Shown here: positions 29,031 to 36,181 of the stretch, one piece after another
Layout of the letters: each line of letters opens with the position of its first letter
Position numbering within the stretch: position 1 is the stretch's first letter
NCBI RefSeq assembly: GCF_000021985.1
Contig: NC_011901.1
Span: 62,001 to 126,000, forward strand
DNA length: 64,000 bases
Source: Thioalkalivibrio sulfidiphilus HL-EbGr7
Lineage (GTDB): Bacteria > Pseudomonadota > Gammaproteobacteria > Ectothiorhodospirales > Ectothiorhodospiraceae
Direction of reading: 5' to 3'
The notes under the pieces: model-generated
What the model saw: only the letters and a program-made list of their open reading frames with translations
Databases searched by the model: none
Told to the model about the DNA's origin: nothing
Translations under genes and position numbers: made by a program

Positions 29031-31742
29031 GTGAGCAAGACCCCGCCCCTGGTGCTGGTGGATGGATCCTCCTACCTGTATCGCGCCTTCCACGCCCTGC
29101 CGCCCCTGACCAATTCCCGGGGTGAACCCACCGGGGCCGTCTATGGTGTGGCCAACATGCTGCGCAAGCTGCTCAAGGACTACGCGCCGGAGCACGTGGT
29201 GGTGGTGTTCGATGCCAAGGGCAAGACCTTCCGGGACGAGATGTACGCCGAGTACAAGGCCAACCGCCCGCCCATGCCCGACGAGCTGGCCGCCCAGGTG
29301 GAGCCCCTGCACCAGGTGGTCCAGGCCATGGGCCTGCCCATGCTGGTGGTCCCCGGGGTGGAGGCGGACGACGTGATCGCGACCCTGGCCCGCGAGGGCA
29401 GGGAACACGGCCTGGAGGTGGTGATCTCAACCGGCGACAAGGACATGGCCCAGCTGGTGGAGCCCGGGGTGACCCTGGTGAACACCATGACCGACACCAA
29501 AATGGATGCCGAGGGGGTCAAGGAGAAGTTCGGCGTTGCGCCGGAGCAGATCGTGGATTACCTGGCGCTGATCGGCGACACCGTGGACAACGTGCCCGGG
29601 GTGGACAAGGTGGGGCCCAAGACCGCAGTGAAGTGGCTGGAGGCCTACGGCAGTCTCGACGGCATCATGGAACACGCGGAGGAGATCAAGGGCAAGGTGG
29701 GCGAGAACCTGCGCGCGGCCCTGGGCCACCTGCCCCTGTCCCGGGAGCTGGTGACCGTGCGCCGGGACCTGGAACTGGACGTGACGCCCGAGTCCCTGCG
29801 TCTCGGCGAGCCGGACCGGGAGACCCTCAGGGCGCTGTTCTCCCGCCTGGAATTCCGCACCTGGCTCAAGGAACTGGAGTCGGGCGAAGAGCAAGCCCAG
29901 GCCGCATCCGATGACCCGACACCCGGCCAGCCCGCCCAGGCCTACGAGACGATCCTGGACGAAAAGGCCCTGGCCGCCTGGATGAAGCGCCTGGAGACGG
30001 CAGAGCTGTTCGCCTTCGACACCGAGACCACCAGCCTGGACTACATGCAGGCGCAAGTGGTGGGGGTCTCCTTCGCCGTGAAGACCGGCGAGGCCGCCTA
30101 CCTGCCGCTCGCCCATGACTACGCCGATGCGCCCCAGCAACTGGATCGGGACGAGACGCTGAAGCGCCTCAAGCCCCTGCTGGAGAGCGCCAGGCACAAG
30201 AAGCTCGGCCATCACCTCAAATATGACCGCAACGTGCTGCTCAACCACGGCATCGAGTTGAACGGCATCGAGCACGACACCATGCTGGAGTCCTACGTGT
30301 TGAACAGCACGGCGAGCCGTCACGACATGGACAGCCTGGCCCAGAAGTACCTGGACTACCGCACCACCCACTACGAGGAAGTGGCCGGCAAGGGGGCCAA
30401 GCAGATCCCCTTCTCCCAGGTGCGCATCGAGGACGCCACCCCCTACGCCGCCGAGGACGCGGACATCACCCTGCGCCTGCATGAACACCTCTGGCCGCAG
30501 CTCTCGGCCGCCGAGGGCCAGTGCCGGGTGTACCGGGAGATCGAGATGCCCCTGGTGCCGGTGCTCTCGCGCATGGAGCGCACCGGGGTGAAGGTGGACG
30601 CCGAGCGCCTGTTCGCCCAGAGCCACGAGCTGGCCGAGCGCATGGGCCAGATCGAGCGGGAGGCCCATGAGGTGGCCGGCGGGGCCTTCAACCTGGGCTC
30701 ACCCAAGCAGATCCAGGAGATCCTGTACGAGCGCCAGAAGCTGCCGGTGCTCAGGAAGACCCCCAAGGGCCAGCCCTCCACCGCCGAGGACGTGCTGGAG
30801 CAGCTGGCCCTGGACTATCCGCTGCCGAAGCTGATCCTGGAGCACCGCTCGCTGTCCAAGCTCAAGTCCACCTACACCGACAAGCTGCCGGAGCGCATCG
30901 ACCCGGACACCGGCCGGGTGCACACCTCCTATCACCAGGCGGTGGCCTCCACCGGGCGCCTGTCCTCCTCGGACCCCAACCTGCAGAACATCCCCATCCG
31001 CACCGAGGAGGGCCGGCGCATCCGCCAGGCCTTCGTGGCCCCTTCGGGCCGGCGGCTGGTAGCGGCGGACTACTCCCAGATCGAGCTGCGCATCATGGCC
31101 CACCTGTCCGGGGACGCCGGCCTGCTCAGGGCCTTCGCCGAGGGTCAGGACATCCACCGGGCCACCGCCGCCGAGGTCTTCGGCGTGGGCCTCGACCAGG
31201 TCTCCGGCGAGCAGCGCCGGGCCGCCAAGGCCATCAACTTCGGGCTCATCTACGGCATGTCCGCCTTCGGCCTGGCCCGCCAGCTGGGCATCGAGCGGGG
31301 CGACGCCCAGGACTACGTGGACCGCTATTTCGCCCGCTATCCCGGCGTGAAGGACTACATGGAATCCACCCGGGAAAAGGCCCGGGATCTGGGCTACGTG
31401 GAGACCCTGTTCGGCCGGCGCCTGTACCTGCCGGACATCAATGCCCGCAACGGCCAGATCCGCGCCCAGGCGGAGCGGGTGGCCATCAACGCCCCCATGC
31501 AGGGCACCGCCGCGGACATCATCAAGCGGGCCATGATCCAGGTGGATCAATGGATTCGCGAATCACGAATACCGGCGGTGATGATCCTGCAGGTGCACGA
31601 CGAACTGGTGCTGGAGGTGGACGAGGACGCGGTGGACAAGGTGCGTGAGGAGCTGTGCGTGCGCATGTCCCAGGCCGCCGAGCTCAAGGTGCCCCTGGTG
31701 GTGGAGGCCGGGGTGGGGGATAACTGGGATGATGCACATTAG
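29031..31742 (+). CDS. polA: DNA polymerase I
   Basis: 903 aa from GTG 29031 (CGGAGTGAG upstream). N-terminal 5'-nuclease domain (1 to about 290, DGSSYLYRAFHAL), 3'-5' exonuclease domain with intact Asp/Glu pair (FDTETTSLD), and polymerase domain with motif A DYSQIELRIMAHLSGD and motif C VHDELVLEV. All catalytic acids are present, so all three activities are expected. Length matches E. coli Pol I (928). A repeat hairpin that can act as terminator and two sRNA candidates follow. Confidence 0.96.
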   Translation: MSKTPPLVLVDGSSYLYRAFHALPPLTNSRGEPTGAVYGVANMLRKLLKDYAPEHVVVVFDAKGKTFRDEMYAEYKANRPPMPDELAAQVEPLHQVVQAMGLPMLVVPGVEADDVIATLAREGREHGLEVVISTGDKDMAQLVEPGVTLVNTMTDTKMDAEGVKEKFGVAPEQIVDYLALIGDTVDNVPGVDKVGPKTAVKWLEAYGSLDGIMEHAEEIKGKVGENLRAALGHLPLSRELVTVRRDLELDVTPESLRLGEPDRETLRALFSRLEFRTWLKELESGEEQAQAASDDPTPGQPAQAYETILDEKALAAWMKRLETAELFAFDTETTSLDYMQAQVVGVSFAVKTGEAAYLPLAHDYADAPQQLDRDETLKRLKPLLESARHKKLGHHLKYDRNVLLNHGIELNGIEHDTMLESYVLNSTASRHDMDSLAQKYLDYRTTHYEEVAGKGAKQIPFSQVRIEDATPYAAEDADITLRLHEHLWPQLSAAEGQCRVYREIEMPLVPVLSRMERTGVKVDAERLFAQSHELAERMGQIEREAHEVAGGAFNLGSPKQIQEILYERQKLPVLRKTPKGQPSTAEDVLEQLALDYPLPKLILEHRSLSKLKSTYTDKLPERIDPDTGRVHTSYHQAVASTGRLSSSDPNLQNIPIRTEEGRRIRQAFVAPSGRRLVAADYSQIELRIMAHLSGDAGLLRAFAEGQDIHRATAAEVFGVGLDQVSGEQRRAAKAINFGLIYGMSAFGLARQLGIERGDAQDYVDRYFARYPGVKDYMESTREKARDLGYVETLFGRRLYLPDINARNGQIRAQAERVAINAPMQGTAADIIKRAMIQVDQWIRESRIPAVMILQVHDELVLEVDEDAVDKVREELCVRMSQAAELKVPLVVEAGVGDNWDDAH

Positions 31743-31744
31743 AG

Positions 31745-31810
31745 GCAGTGGCTAGTGGCAAGTAGCCAGTTGCAAGGGGGCCCTGCCACTTGAGACTTGC
31801 CACTGTTTTT
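31745..31810 (+). repeat. 7-bp repeat hairpin (AGTGGCA family), possible polA terminator
   Basis: Left arm AGTGGCT, AGTGGCA, AGTAGCC, AGTTGCA; right arm (31782-31805) closes with GCCACTG followed by five T. The outer CAGTGGC/GCCACTG pairing plus T-run can terminate polA transcription. Confidence 0.75.
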
Positions 31811-31851: not shown

Positions 31852-31878
31852 GAACTTTCTTCGTGAGGGAGAGTCATA
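31852..31878 (+). promoter_or_regulatory. sigma-E/AlgU-type promoter of sRNA 1
   Basis: GAACTT (31852-31857), 16-bp spacer, TCATA (31874-31878). The -35 matches the sigma-E/AlgU consensus exactly; the -10 is a near match to TCTGA/TCAAA. The predicted start falls at about 31886, exactly where sequence conservation with sRNA 2 begins. Confidence 0.65.
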
Positions 31879-31885
31879 CTCAGGT

Positions 31886-31996
31886 AAGCGCTGTAGCCCG
31901 GCGCTTCCCCGCTTCCCTCCCTGAGCGGGTGGATGGCTCAGACTCCCCCAAGTTGAGCCTTTTATTGAGCCCCGGCGCCCGCCGGGGCTTTTTTTT
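31886..31996 (+). ncRNA. sRNA candidate 1 at the Spot 42/ErsA locus
   Basis: About 111 nt between polA and engB, the position of Spot 42 in enterics and ErsA in Pseudomonas. Three small stems: AGCGC/GCGCT (31887-31905), CCCGCT/AGCGGG with a C/U-rich loop, and GGCTCA/TGAGCC with loop containing CTCCCCCAAG. Then a terminator with a perfect 10-bp stem (31968-31989) and eight T. The C-rich loops could pair with Shine-Dalgarno sequences. Homologous to sRNA 2, with compensatory changes in stem 3. Confidence 0.75.
31968..31996 (+). terminator. terminator of sRNA 1
   Basis: Perfect stem AGCCCCGGCG/CGCCGGGGCT with a two-base gap and a run of eight T. Confidence 0.9.
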
Positions 31997-32078
31997 GCCG
32001 CTGGCATGAGGAAACAGGCACCAGCGCAAAGGACATTCGGGACTGTTTCACACTTTGTGGCATTGGGCGTCATGGGCA

Positions 32079-32105
32079 GAACTTTTCCGCCAGCCCCCAG
32101 TCTGA
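32079..32105 (+). promoter_or_regulatory. sigma-E/AlgU consensus promoter of sRNA 2
   Basis: GAACTT (32079-32084), 16-bp spacer, TCTGA (32101-32105): an exact match to the sigma-E/AlgU consensus. The predicted start near 32112 coincides with the first conserved base of sRNA 2 (AAGCGCT). Confidence 0.8.
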
Positions 32106-32111
32106 CATTAC

Positions 32112-32236
32112 AAGCGCTCTAGCCCGGCGCTGCCCGCTTTTCCTCCCCTGAGCGGGATGGCTCGATTCCCCAAGTCGAGCCTCCATTCTGCCCCGGTCGT
32201 ACCAGCTCTCCCCGAGCGGTCACCGGGGTTTTTTTT
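32112..32236 (+). ncRNA. sRNA candidate 2, tandem paralogue of sRNA 1
   Basis: About 125 nt. Opens with AAGCGCTCTAGCCCGGCGCT, 19 of 20 identical to sRNA 1, keeps the CCCGCT/AGCGGG stem, and has stem 3 as GGCTCGA/TCGAGCC where sRNA 1 has GGCTCA/TGAGCC, i.e. paired substitutions that preserve the helix. Ends in stem CCCCGGT/ACCGGGG and eight T (32229-32236). Between the two RNAs (31997-32078) nothing but the second promoter is seen. Confidence 0.78.
32191..32236 (+). terminator. terminator of sRNA 2
   Basis: Stem CCCCGGT (32191-32197) with ACCGGGG (32222-32228), long loop, eight T. Confidence 0.75.
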
Positions 32237-32273
32237 GGCCTCGATTGGGCGGGTTAGGGTCAAAGGCGTTTAA

Positions 32274-32451
32274 GCCACAGAGGGCACAGAGGTCACAGAG
32301 GGAAAAGATAACGCAAAGGGTTTTCACGACTTGACATAGGATCAGTCCAGGGCACGCTGGCCGAATCGCGGTATATCACTGCCATTCAATGCATTTTCTC
32401 TGTGACCTCTGTGACCTCTGTGACCTCTGTGCCCTCTGTGCCCTCTGTGGC
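32274..32451. repeat. 9-bp repeat hairpin (CACAGAGGN family)
   Basis: Left arm has three CACAGAGG words; right arm (32397-32451) has about seven consecutive CTCTGTGNC nonamers. The arms are inverted and about 95 bp apart. Lies at the engB 3' end. Confidence 0.9.
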
Positions 32452-32462
32452 TAAAAAAGCCC

Positions 32463-33092
32463 TTACTCCGACGCAGCCCGGGCCTCGGGTTCCGCGGTCA
32501 GCCCCAGCCACTGGTCCAGGATGCCGTGGGCGTCTTCCACCCCCTCCCGCTTGAGGGCCGAGAAGGGCTGTACCGTGGCCTCGATGCCGGCATCGCCCAG
32601 GGCCCGGGCCACCTGGCGGGCGGTGTCCATGGCCGGGCCCCGGCGTATCTTGTCGGCCTTGGTCAGCAGCACGTGCACCGCCAGGCCACGTTCCCGGGCC
32701 CAGCCCAGCATGGTCCAGTCGTGGTCCGTGAGCGGATGGCGGATGTCCATGACCACCACCAGCCCTTTCAGGCACGCGCGCTCACCCAGGTAGTGCTCCA
32801 TGAGCTTGCGCCAGGCCTTGCGCATGGCCTCGGGGACCTTGGCATACCCATAGCCGGGTAGATCCACCAGGCGCCGGGACTCATCCAGGGCGAAGAAATT
32901 GATCAGCTGGGTGCGCCCCGGGGTCTTGCTGGTGCGGGCCAGGGCGCGCTGGTTGCACAGTACGTTGATGGCGCTGGATTTGCCCGCGTTGGAGCGGCCG
33001 GCAAAGGCCACCTCCATGCCCTCATCGGTGGGGAAGGCGTCGGGTCTGGCGGCGCTGATCAGGAAACGGGCCTGCTGGTAGAAGGGGTTCAA
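32463..33092 (-). CDS. engB: ribosome-biogenesis GTPase EngB (YihA/YsxC)
   Basis: 209 aa when started at TTG 33092, giving the family N-terminus [14 protein letters not shown] and nearly the E. coli length; GGAG lies about eight bases upstream. The open frame extends upstream to 33227 but without family similarity. GTPase motifs: GRSNAGKSS (G1), DLPGYG (G3) and LTKADK (G4). Required for 50S assembly. Conserved next to polA and cytochrome c4 as in Pseudomonas. Confidence 0.92.
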
Positions 33093-33288
33093 GCGACGTG
33101 CTCCGGAGAGGGGTTCAGGCCCGGCAGGCAGGGGCCTTTGGCTTTTGCGGGCTGGGGTTTTGTGGTATACAGTGCAGCCATTTTTGGCAATGGCCGGGAC
33201 CCGGGTCAATGTTTTCGGGCCACCCATGGCTCATAAAATAACGATTCCCTCTCAGTAAATCCTAGATGTCACCAGGAGTACATCCGCG

Positions 33289-34007: not shown

Positions 34008-34033
34008 GAACTTGTGGCATCCGGAGGGTCAAA
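34008..34033 (+). promoter_or_regulatory. possible sigma-E-type promoter upstream of resB
   Basis: GAACTT, 15-bp spacer, TCAAA. Both boxes match sigma-E variants; spacing is one base short of the optimum. It would drive resB-ccsA-dsbA with a GC-rich leader of about 100 nt containing a CCCCG/CGGGG hairpin. Confidence 0.45.
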
Positions 34034-34141: not shown

Positions 34142-36181
34142 ATGAGCAGTACCACCAAGGCGGTCACCCGCGGGCAGCGCTCCACCGGCGCCATCCTGCT
34201 GGAATTCCTGGGTTCCATGAGCCTCGCCATCACCCTGCTGGTGGCCCTGGCCATTGCCTCCGTGATCGGCACGGTGCTGCAACAGAACCAGCCCTACCAG
34301 GACTACCTGCTCAAGTTCGGGCCCTTCTGGCACGAGATCTTCGCCGGCATGGCCCTCTACGATGTCTACTCCGCCGGCTGGTTCCTGGTGATCCTGACCT
34401 TCCTGGTGGTCTCCACCAGCGTGTGTATCTATCGCCATGCGCCCACGATGGTGCGCGACATGCGCCATTTCCGCATGTCGGTGAAGGAAAAATCCCTGCG
34501 CAGTTTCCAGCACCACGTGGCCGATGAGCTGGACATGGCCCCCGCCGCGGCAATCGATCGCACCAGTCGTGCCCTGAGCAGCCGCGGTTACCGGGTGCGG
34601 GTCAAGGACCATGGTGATCACCAGGTCCTCTCAGCCATGAAGGGCGCCTCCAACCGCCTGGGTTACCTGTTCACCCACGTGGCCATCGTGATCATCTGCG
34701 TGGGTGCCGTGATGGACGGCCGCATGCCGATGAAACTGGCAGAATTGACCGGACGTCTGGTGGTGGAGACCCGGGACATTCCGGCCTCCCAGGTGCCTCC
34801 GGAGAGCCGTCTGGGGGCCGCCAACCGTTCCTTCCGGGGCACCGTCGAGATCCCCGAGGGCCGGCGCGCCAACGTCGTCTTCATCAACATTCGTGACGGT
34901 TTTGTGGTCCAGGAACTCCCCTTCACCGTGGAGGTGCGCCAGTTCCGCGTCGAGCATCACTCCACCGGCGCGCCGCGCTCTTTCGAGAGCGACCTGGTGA
35001 TCTTCGACAATGACCTGCCCGAGCCCCTGGAGCAGACCATCAGCGTCAACCACCCGCTCATCTACAAGGGCCACGCCATCTACCAGGCGAGCTTCGGCGA
35101 CGGCGGCTCCAGGCTGAACATCAACATCTGGCCGCTCAATGAGCGCGGCCTGGAGCCGGTGCCGTTCGAGGGCAACGTGTTCCAGAACTATCCCATGGAA
35201 GTGGTGGACCGGGGTGAATGGACCCTGGAACTGCACGACTTCGCGCTGCACAACATCAACCCCTTCCTGGACGAGCAGGGTCAGCGATTCAACCGCAATT
35301 TCGGCCCCAGCTTCACCTTCCGCCTGCGCGACCGCACCGGCGTGGCCATGGAGTACCAGAACTACATGGCGCCGGTGGAGCAGGAAGGCCGGCTGTTTTA
35401 CCTGAGCGGTGTGCGCGAGAGCGTGGCCGATGAGTTCCAGTACCTGCACATCCCCGCCGACCCCAGCGGCAGCCTGCAGCGTTTCATGACCTTCCATGCC
35501 ATGCTGCAGAACCCGGCGGTGATCGCCGAGGTCGCGCGCTCCACCACCACGGCGGCGGTGGCCGAGGTACGTGGCGACGACGAGGTGCAGGAGCAGGTGC
35601 GCCGCACCATGGAGCGGCTGATGCTGCTGTTCGCCCAGGGCGGCTATGACGCCATCGCCCAGGAGATCGAATCCCGCACACCGCCGGAACAGGTCTCCCA
35701 GGTCACCGAGGTGTTCATCCGTGTGTTGCACGCCGGCCTGCAGGCCCTTTACCTGGAGGTGCTGGCAGAGGAAGGCGTGGACGAGATCACCGAGGCCGAC
35801 CAGGTGTTCCTGGAGGATGCCGTGGTGGCGGCCAATGCCATCCACTTCTACGGTTCGCCGGTGTTCCTGCACCTGACCGGTTTCGATCATATCGAGGCCT
35901 CCGGCCTGATGATCACCAAGTCCCCGGGCCAGGGCGTGGTCTATTTCGGCAGCATCATGCTCACCATCGGCATCTTCCTGATGTTCTACGTGGCCCACCG
36001 CCGCTGCTGGCTGTGGGTGACCCCGGCCGGCGAGGGCCGCAGCCGCGTGGTGTTTGCTGGTACCAGCAACCGGAATATGGTGGAATTCGACAAGGAATTC
36101 GGTGTGCTTACCGCCGCCGCCCTGGGTAAAGAGCCCGCATCCGACCGTGACGGAGCGACGCAGCAGCAGGGCGCGTCATAA
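34142..36181 (+). CDS. resB: cytochrome c maturation protein ResB (CcsB), System II
   Basis: 679-aa membrane protein. Three N-terminal transmembrane helices (about 20-40, 75-95, 175-195), a large periplasmic region to about 590 and a last helix (GSIMLTIGIFLMFYVAHRRCW). ResB with CcsA delivers haem to apocytochromes c in the periplasm. N-terminal FLGSMSLAITLLVALAIASVIGTVLQQNQ is split here only for length; its LGSMSLAI and IGTVLQQNQ parts are characteristic. Operon with ccsA and dsbA follows. Confidence 0.92.
   Translation: MSSTTKAVTRGQRSTGAILLEFLGSMSLAITLLVALAIASVIGTVLQQNQPYQDYLLKFGPFWHEIFAGMALYDVYSAGWFLVILTFLVVSTSVCIYRHAPTMVRDMRHFRMSVKEKSLRSFQHHVADELDMAPAAAIDRTSRALSSRGYRVRVKDHGDHQVLSAMKGASNRLGYLFTHVAIVIICVGAVMDGRMPMKLAELTGRLVVETRDIPASQVPPESRLGAANRSFRGTVEIPEGRRANVVFINIRDGFVVQELPFTVEVRQFRVEHHSTGAPRSFESDLVIFDNDLPEPLEQTISVNHPLIYKGHAIYQASFGDGGSRLNINIWPLNERGLEPVPFEGNVFQNYPMEVVDRGEWTLELHDFALHNINPFLDEQGQRFNRNFGPSFTFRLRDRTGVAMEYQNYMAPVEQEGRLFYLSGVRESVADEFQYLHIPADPSGSLQRFMTFHAMLQNPAVIAEVARSTTTAAVAEVRGDDEVQEQVRRTMERLMLLFAQGGYDAIAQEIESRTPPEQVSQVTEVFIRVLHAGLQALYLEVLAEEGVDEITEADQVFLEDAVVAANAIHFYGSPVFLHLTGFDHIEASGLMITKSPGQGVVYFGSIMLTIGIFLMFYVAHRRCWLWVTPAGEGRSRVVFAGTSNRNMVEFDKEFGVLTAAALGKEPASDRDGATQQQGAS

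Follow-up and report, generated by a model that had tools for sequence, protein, structure and literature searches.

A tandem pair of putative sigma-E-controlled sRNA genes between polA and engB of Thioalkalivibrio sulfidiphilus, and their apparent kinship with anti-hemB, sX13 and ErsA

The window analyzed here is a stretch of 64,000 nucleotides from Thioalkalivibrio sulfidiphilus HL-EbGr7. It contains an open reading frame for polA (29031–31742, + strand) and a convergent one for engB (yihA/ysxC; 32463–33227, – strand); both were named from their own sequence and, when used as queries, matched the expected genes elsewhere. The gap between them holds two homologous units on the polA strand, at 31852–31996 (unit 1, with polA as its 5′ neighbor) and 32079–32236 (unit 2, with engB as its 3′ neighbor). 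In both, GAACTT-N16-TCNNA precedes AAGCGCT, after which come three hairpins and a GC-rich T-run terminator. The sigma-E-like promoter of unit 1 (31852–31878, + strand), which is kept in relatives, consists of GAACTT at 31852–31857, a 16-nt spacer, and TCATA at 31874–31878, with AAGCGCT following from 31886. The putative RNA spans 31886–31996 (+ strand; predicted start at 31885/31886) and comprises hairpins 1–3 and the terminator. Folding and loop extraction placed hairpin 2, with the loop CCCUCCCU, at 31908–31929, and hairpin 3, with the stem GGCTCA/TGAGCC and CUCCCCC in its loop, at 31935–31959; the intrinsic terminator lies at 31967–31996 (scanned stem 31967–31990 plus T-run; all + strand). 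In unit 2, the promoter (32079–32105, + strand) has GAACTT at 32079–32084, the same spacer length, and TCTGA at 32101–32105, with AAGCGCT from 32112. Its putative RNA (32112–32236, + strand; predicted start at 32111/32112) likewise comprises hairpins 1–3 and a terminator: hairpin 2 (32133–32156) has the loop UUCCUCCCCU, hairpin 3 (32159–32181) the stem GGCTCGATT/AGTCGAGCC and a C-rich loop, and the terminator (32190–32236; all + strand) a long apical part that holds CUCUCCCC. A simple terminator scan listed the terminator of unit 1 but missed that of unit 2 because its loop exceeds the length that the scan allows.

Both putative RNAs fold well below expectation. The minimum free energy is –55.6 kcal/mol for unit 1 (31885–31995, z = –5.06) and –56.7 kcal/mol for unit 2 (32114–32235, first two bases omitted, z = –4.74), and for each unit 0 of 200 dinucleotide shuffles folded as low. 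The two RNAs are identical at 93 of 105 aligned positions, gaps excluded, and stem 3 changes from GGCTCA/TGAGCC in unit 1 to GGCTCGA/TCGAGCC in unit 2 with pairing retained, just as an earlier note on this DNA had pointed out. Inspection by eye revealed no small ORF common to the units, and no sigma-70 promoter was found between 31500 and 32600 of the window.

The Rfam model of anti-hemB (RF02837, cut-off 49.5 bits) scored unit 1 at 51.0 bits (31906–31996) and unit 2 at 46.9 bits (E = 7e-10, 32131–32236). We searched this model in the 47 genomes of the host's GTDB family and obtained matches in 45 of them, nine over cut-off. After 14 weaker matches at other places (L045–L058) had been dropped, 57 units remained in 43 genomes, and 56 of these, in 42 genomes, stand beside polA and/or engB. 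The exception is the single unit of the g5 genome G046 (L044, 1501–1623, – strand); its neighbors, judged from their ORFs, look like a dihydrolipoamide dehydrogenase-type gene and one for an HD-domain protein. Family units carry an AAGCGCT-like start, a CCCGC...GCGGG hairpin, a third hairpin, and a terminator. By RF02837, two units were found in 5/5 genomes of the host genus and in 9/10 of a second genus, and one unit each in the only g3 genome, the only g5 genome, and 26/30 g4 genomes. The g4 genomes in which none was found (G030, G034, G035, and G036) are assemblies of 240–340 contigs, three of them ~80% complete, hence absence of the unit from these fragmented or incomplete assemblies is not established. 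In three of the five host-genus genomes (G042, G043, and G045), the polA-proximal unit faces polA while the orientation of the distal unit is unchanged, and GAACTT-N16-TCATA still stands in front of the inverted copies. Since promoter and terminator flip along with it, such a unit is best regarded as an independent gene. In a tree of 43 units, pairs group weakly by genus (76/73); this weakly supported tree would fit one ancestral or two independent duplications alike.

Across the class Gammaproteobacteria (GTDB sense), RF02837 at E ≤0.001 gave matches in 169 of 370 genomes, 23 of them over cut-off. From among the matches listed we drew 106 loci, whose resemblance to the model is therefore by choice. 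A covariance model built from 15 family units with both window units excluded (R1) recognized the latter significantly, at 87.9 bits (unit 1) and 76.1 bits (unit 2). Two covariance-model alignments were made: A6, with 55 family matches (52 distinct) from 41 of 43 loci, L013 and L017 being omitted, and A7, with 103 matches (102 distinct) from 84 of the 106 class loci and five family loci (seven family rows). A further model, R2, was built from A7 before any named Pseudomonas locus was taken in; it scored unit 1 at 91.7 bits (31883–31996) and unit 2 at 78.1 bits (32109–32237). A weak RF02837 match elsewhere in the host genome (26.2 bits, L051) was rejected as a third copy, as it is absent from that genome's two R2 matches. 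Among the 52 distinct units of A6, 95.6% of cells are paired, with two-sided changes at 18/30 pairs; among the 102 of A7, 94.8% are paired, with two-sided changes at 30/30 pairs. A7 contains 693 two-sided cells; its column-shuffled versions contain 165, and with the partner slid by one, two, or three columns, pairing fell to 37–49%. Both alignments were fitted to the modeled structure and are biased towards it, for which the shuffles and slides serve as controls; the contrast between the observed and the slid pairing is large nevertheless. A plain MAFFT alignment of the 57 units was discarded in favor of these alignments, since it misaligned stem 3 and RNAalifold then missed that stem.

We then turned to the placement and number of copies in the class. 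By tblastn, both polA and engB were in reach at 50 of the 106 class loci, polA only at 14, engB only at 21, and neither at 21. Some of the loci with neither gene have other recognizable neighbors: L107 adjoins ResB and L078 a gene for cytochrome c, two genes that come after engB in the window as well, and L102 and L136 adjoin rimO. R1 at its thresholds gave 126 matches in the 106 loci, although several are weak and perhaps non-members (e.g. L134, L138, and L161, 18–26 bits). R2 matched in 215/370 class genomes, its own source genomes included, and of 20 additional R2 loci, 16 have polA or engB as a neighbor. Two or more matches occur in 11/106 class loci, and polA and/or engB is in reach of 9/11: L124 has five matches, L121 and L129 have four, L146 and L155 have three (the third copies being weak, 19 and 22 bits), and L065, L071, L104, L110, L125, and L137 have two each. 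Further pairs stand at L299, L300, L301, L312, and L313, four of these chosen for two close matches. Among the 20 additional R2 loci, those of G364, G257, G108, and G586 were selected for closely spaced matches, so the set gives no measure of the tandem rate. We also noted that G353 carries two strong R2 matches (L297 and L298, 80 and 70 bits) that are separated by ~265 kb and have neither polA nor engB as a neighbor, which shows that copies can leave the locus. In other classes, R2 at E ≤0.001 matched in 33 genomes with a best score of 37.2 bits, and none of 20 such places (one in each of 20 of the 33 genomes) is beside polA or engB; a score of 27–37 bits alone therefore does not prove membership.

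Next, we consider the promoter motif. GAACTT-N15-17-TCNNA is not enriched in the 3.46-Mb host genome (27 occurrences vs 35 for the reversed pattern), hence the motif alone is no evidence. As far as sequence can tell, the weight lies in its two copies at equal distance before homologous hairpin sets and in the conservation of that arrangement. The strict form GAACTT-N15-17-TC precedes 39/57 family units (shuffled mean 0.06), a relaxed form (GAAC[T/C], N16–18, TC) a further 14/57, and neither form the remaining 4/57; two of these four, in G043 and G045, have AAAACTT at about that position. Among the 126 class units, 70 have the strict motif and 90 the relaxed one (GAACT-N14-18-TC), with shuffled means of 0.2 and 1.4, respectively. 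In both sets, the motif is retained while its spacer varies. The earlier claims of two homologous units at polA-engB, and of a GAACTT-N16-TC promoter followed by AAGCGCT in each, were thus borne out by the equal spacing in the window and by the 57 family units. Not every member need be sigma-E driven, as 4/57 family and 36/126 class units are without even the relaxed motif. Three of the four fetched units of class-family f8 (L068, L075, and L082) keep the RNA and have no GAACTT promoter; in L068, TGTGTAAATTTTATGTTACAC stands at the promoter place and the controlling signal has possibly changed. Anchored on GAACT, the class –10 reads g-TC-t-t-A. We take the resulting consensus, GAACTT...TC-t-t-A, to be the sigma-E/AlgU form. 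The host genome encodes RpoE (310 bits, over cut-off) followed by RseA and MucB/RseB domains (rpoE-rseA-rseB), as well as Hfq (100 bits, over cut-off); five other RpoE-like matches in it are weaker. Motif and rpoE-rseA-rseB together suggest that both promoters of the pair are sigma-E dependent. One more match, GAACTT-N15-TCAAA at 34008–34033 (+ strand), stands ~110 bases before a resB frame at 34142 and is possibly due to chance, given the lack of genome-wide enrichment of this pattern.

Upon inspection of the loops, strongly C-rich sequences were found in hairpins 2 and 3 of both units and in the terminator of unit 2. The loop of hairpin 1 (GUAGCCC type) is only modestly C-rich, hence the earlier description of three C-rich-loop stems and a terminator stands for hairpins 2 and 3 and the terminators but not for hairpin 1. 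In A7, the hairpin 2 loop contains CUCCC in 96/103 matches and CCUCCC in 81/103, with G at 1%; CCCC occurs in the hairpin 3 loop in 78/103 and CCC in the terminator loop in 76/103. Stems that vary around nearly invariant loops point to base-pairing through the loops. The two copies of a pair are not alike in this respect. In the host genus, the proximal hairpin 2 loop is CCCUCCCU in 5/5 genomes and the distal one contains CCUCCCCU in 5/5, with two extra U in the window (unit 2) and in G044. In the second genus, the nine proximal copies are of the ACCCCC type (AACCCCCU in seven, ACCCCCU in one, and AGCCCCCU in one), and all nine distal copies of those pairs have CCUCCC. The loop register thus differs within every pair listed, and the target sets of the two copies probably overlap in part. 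Moreover, branch lengths in the weakly supported tree indicate that one copy per pair evolves faster.

How do these units relate to named RNAs? The earlier note had not recognized unit 1 as Rfam anti-hemB, nor sX13 as a relative. Anti-hemB shares hairpins 2 and 3, the terminator, and an identical CCUCCC loop with the units; the Rfam model, however, begins at hairpin 2, without hairpin 1 and the promoter. Its name (and only the name) comes from a hemB neighborhood, whereas the neighbors here are polA and engB, and we found no description of a tandem anti-hemB pair such as the one seen here. Anti-hemB corresponds to ncS04, described as a 105-nt transcript from Burkholderia cenocepacia biofilms (PMC5688073), and has been classed as a trans-acting RNA (PMC3521395). 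The sX13 RNA of Xanthomonas is described as lying downstream of polA and having three stem-loops with C-rich loops; these C-rich motifs and G-rich motifs in the targets are both needed, Hfq is not required, and hfq is itself among the targets (PMC3771888). Unit 1 similarly adjoins polA on its downstream side and has three stem-loops with C-rich loops. Nevertheless, it scores only 19.3 bits with the sX13 model of Xanthomonadaceae (RF02232, cut-off 50), and we therefore file it as a relative of sX13 rather than sX13 itself. In the accessible text of its report, sX13 is a single gene that is 'constitutively expressed', with no mention of sigma-E control (PMC3771888), as opposed to a pair with sigma-E-like promoters here. 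True sX13 loci (L166–L168, over the RF02232 cut-off) lie beside polA, and at the sX13 coordinates R1 scored 27–31 bits and R2 37–39 bits. Conversely, RF02232 matched family units that RF02837 had found in G198, G117, and G251 at 33 to 48 bits, below its cut-off of 50.

ErsA of Pseudomonas is reported to be a 132-nt, Hfq-dependent RNA from the polA-engB gap that is strictly sigma-22 dependent and represses algC and oprD (PMC8575079, PMC5819304, PMC7565897). On 80 named Pseudomonadales loci, among which P. aeruginosa itself is not included, R2 gave one match each in 58 (E ≤0.0021, 24–37 bits), all just downstream of polA; the best off-position match in those 835 kb reached 14.1 bits (L255). The strict promoter motif precedes 28/58 and the relaxed one 57/58, against shuffled means of 0.16 and 0.79. 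Since 27–37 bits alone is no proof, the case for ErsA rests on position too. R2 gave no match at that level in 22/80 loci, including Halomonas-type loci and a few of Pseudomonas or Halopseudomonas (L194, L204, L208, and L250, with L204 truncated at a contig end). The units thus resemble ErsA in their location in the polA-engB gap and in the sigma-22/sigma-E-type –35/–10 motif that appears in front, and the ErsA link proposed earlier gains support. By contrast, ErsA is described as having a U-rich unpaired middle domain (domain II) where the units have the CCUCCC-loop hairpin 2, and the Pseudomonadales sequences that we inspected show an unpaired stretch in place of that hairpin. As the units do not have the U-rich unpaired domain, they are filed as relatives of ErsA, not as ErsA. 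With Spot 42 (spf) of E. coli, which sits between polA and yihA (engB), the likeness is positional only: of the link drawn by the earlier note, the shared position stood, and homology found no support. The Spot 42 model (RF00021) scored 19.1 bits against a cut-off of 80, R1 did not match spf even at a threshold of E ≤1, and R2 on spf was at background (16.5 bits; two other sites within the same 106 kb of E. coli scored 17.2 and 17.1). The alphaproteobacterial C-rich sRNAs ar14/CcsR and ar7 resemble the units in their CUCC-type loops on several hairpins. CcsR1–4 are tandem siblings. According to PMC3771888, ar7 is likewise located at polA; membership in ar14 (RF02344, cut-off 58.8) was rejected at 29.1 and 17.9 bits. 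Taken together, one sRNA family appears to include anti-hemB, sX13 and, in diverged form, ErsA.

The genes, promoter motifs, structure, covariation, loop conservation, and distribution described above are read from the sequence. From these we infer that the units are transcribed, depend on sigma-E, act by base-pairing, and divide labor between them. We are rather confident in the resulting picture, in which the units are paralogous, separately transcribed, sigma-E-switched sRNA genes whose C-rich loops repress mRNAs with G-rich ribosome-binding sites, and which belong to a polA-engB family that includes anti-hemB, sX13, and a diverged ErsA. Envelope damage would release sigma-E (of the sigma-E/AlgU type), and both promoters would fire, each unit from its own. 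Two highly structured RNAs would arise, each ended by its own intrinsic terminator. Their C-rich loops (hairpin 2 with CCUCCC, hairpin 3 with UCCCC and, in unit 2, the terminator as well) would imitate the anti-Shine-Dalgarno sequence and, by analogy with the loops of sX13, would most likely pair with G-rich ribosome-binding regions and block translation. The seat of the family would be mostly between polA and engB in Gammaproteobacteria. Target prediction for the CUCCC-type loops, which the earlier note had suggested, did not yield a target: five loop sequences against nine mRNA starts (hfq included), 45 tests in all, gave a best p of ~0.03 and no pairing beyond shuffles.

Strong terminators end both units and convergent genes flank them, so the hairpins might be cis elements only, a terminator region between polA and engB that gives no RNA from a promoter of its own. 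We regard this as very improbable: covariation extends to the three hairpins that precede the terminator, the promoter motif has been kept despite changes in its spacer, inverted units take the motif along, and the relatives sX13, ErsA, and ncS04/anti-hemB are reported as detected transcripts. A possible though doubtful alternative is that the RNAs are real and the second unit is merely a dosage or backup copy with identical targets. The high identity of the copies (93/105), the CCUCCC and CCCC loops in both, and the persistence of pairs within a genus would suit such redundancy, but the different loop register in each listed pair (CCCUCCCU vs CCUCCCCU in the host genus) and the faster evolution of one copy per pair, judged from branch lengths in the weakly supported tree, argue for divergence.

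Two further alternatives concern the mode of action and the signal. Strong structure with repeated, near-identical loops resembles a protein sponge, and no target emerged among the nine mRNA starts; protein binding (to Hfq, a cold-shock protein, or another C-rich-binding protein) rather than pairing with mRNAs could be the main action of the RNAs. We find this quite unlikely, as sX13 is described as needing both its C-rich loops and G-rich target motifs and as working without Hfq (PMC3771888). It is also unlikely, in our judgment, that another sigma factor uses the promoters and that the signal is not envelope stress, even though the genome shows no enrichment of the pattern, five weaker RpoE-like matches are present, and some class units are without the motif. 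The class consensus has what we take to be the sigma-E/AlgU form. Furthermore, the Pseudomonas RNA at the equivalent position is described as strictly sigma-22 dependent (PMC8575079, PMC5819304, PMC7565897).

Returning to the preferred reading of sigma-E-switched sRNA genes, we lean towards a broader interpretation, in which the polA-engB gap of Gammaproteobacteria harbors one ancient sigma-E-driven sRNA gene of which ErsA, sX13, and anti-hemB would be descendants. This gene would have multiplied in tandem in many lineages, to pairs here and to as many as five copies elsewhere. Many of the copies would have kept the stress promoter and shifted the loop register, and a single envelope-stress signal would thereby call up a set of diverging translation repressors. 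No description of the pair was found in the open-access literature searched (polA-locus sRNAs, Thioalkalivibrio with sRNA, and the accessible text of PMC11109978 and PMC8092127), in agreement with the earlier remark that it is not described for this lineage, nor were sX13 and ErsA found named together there. A Thioalkalivibrio genome has been screened for structured RNAs (PMC11109978), and the supplement of that study may list this region. New here are the paralogue pair, the repeated occurrence of tandem arrays, and the connection between families that had been named separately. If true, ErsA, sX13, and anti-hemB would be joined in one widespread family whose members have the locus and, for the most part, the stress promoter in common, and targets and mechanisms from Pseudomonas and Xanthomonas would become testable predictions in many other species. 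The search with covariance models that the earlier note had proposed, in which stems, loops, and promoters proved conserved in the 57 family units and the class-wide set, also answers part of a question posed in PMC3771888, namely whether the polA loci of other bacteria encode such RNAs. Recurrent tandem copies would be natural experiments in the duplication of regulatory RNAs and the change of their pairing loops.

Lastly, we noted several features near the units or among the dropped matches. Between the stop of polA and the promoter of unit 1, at 31742–31808, an imperfect inverted repeat (AGTGGCAAGTAGCC...CCACTTGAGACTTGCCACT) was seen by eye. It is the second near the locus, the other being an inverted pair of CACAGAGGNCACAGAGG repeats between unit 2 and engB, at 32276–32301 (+ strand) and 32406–32449 (– strand); this pattern was matched 59 times in the genome and its reverse not once, which marks it as a dispersed intergenic repeat. 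In g4, the weak RF02837 matches L045, L046, L049, and L057 lie right after the stop of a gene ending in ...YTYIKP, and they have a conserved TCTCCCCC...GAGGGT hairpin and a terminator, perhaps a separate C-rich 3′-UTR RNA.
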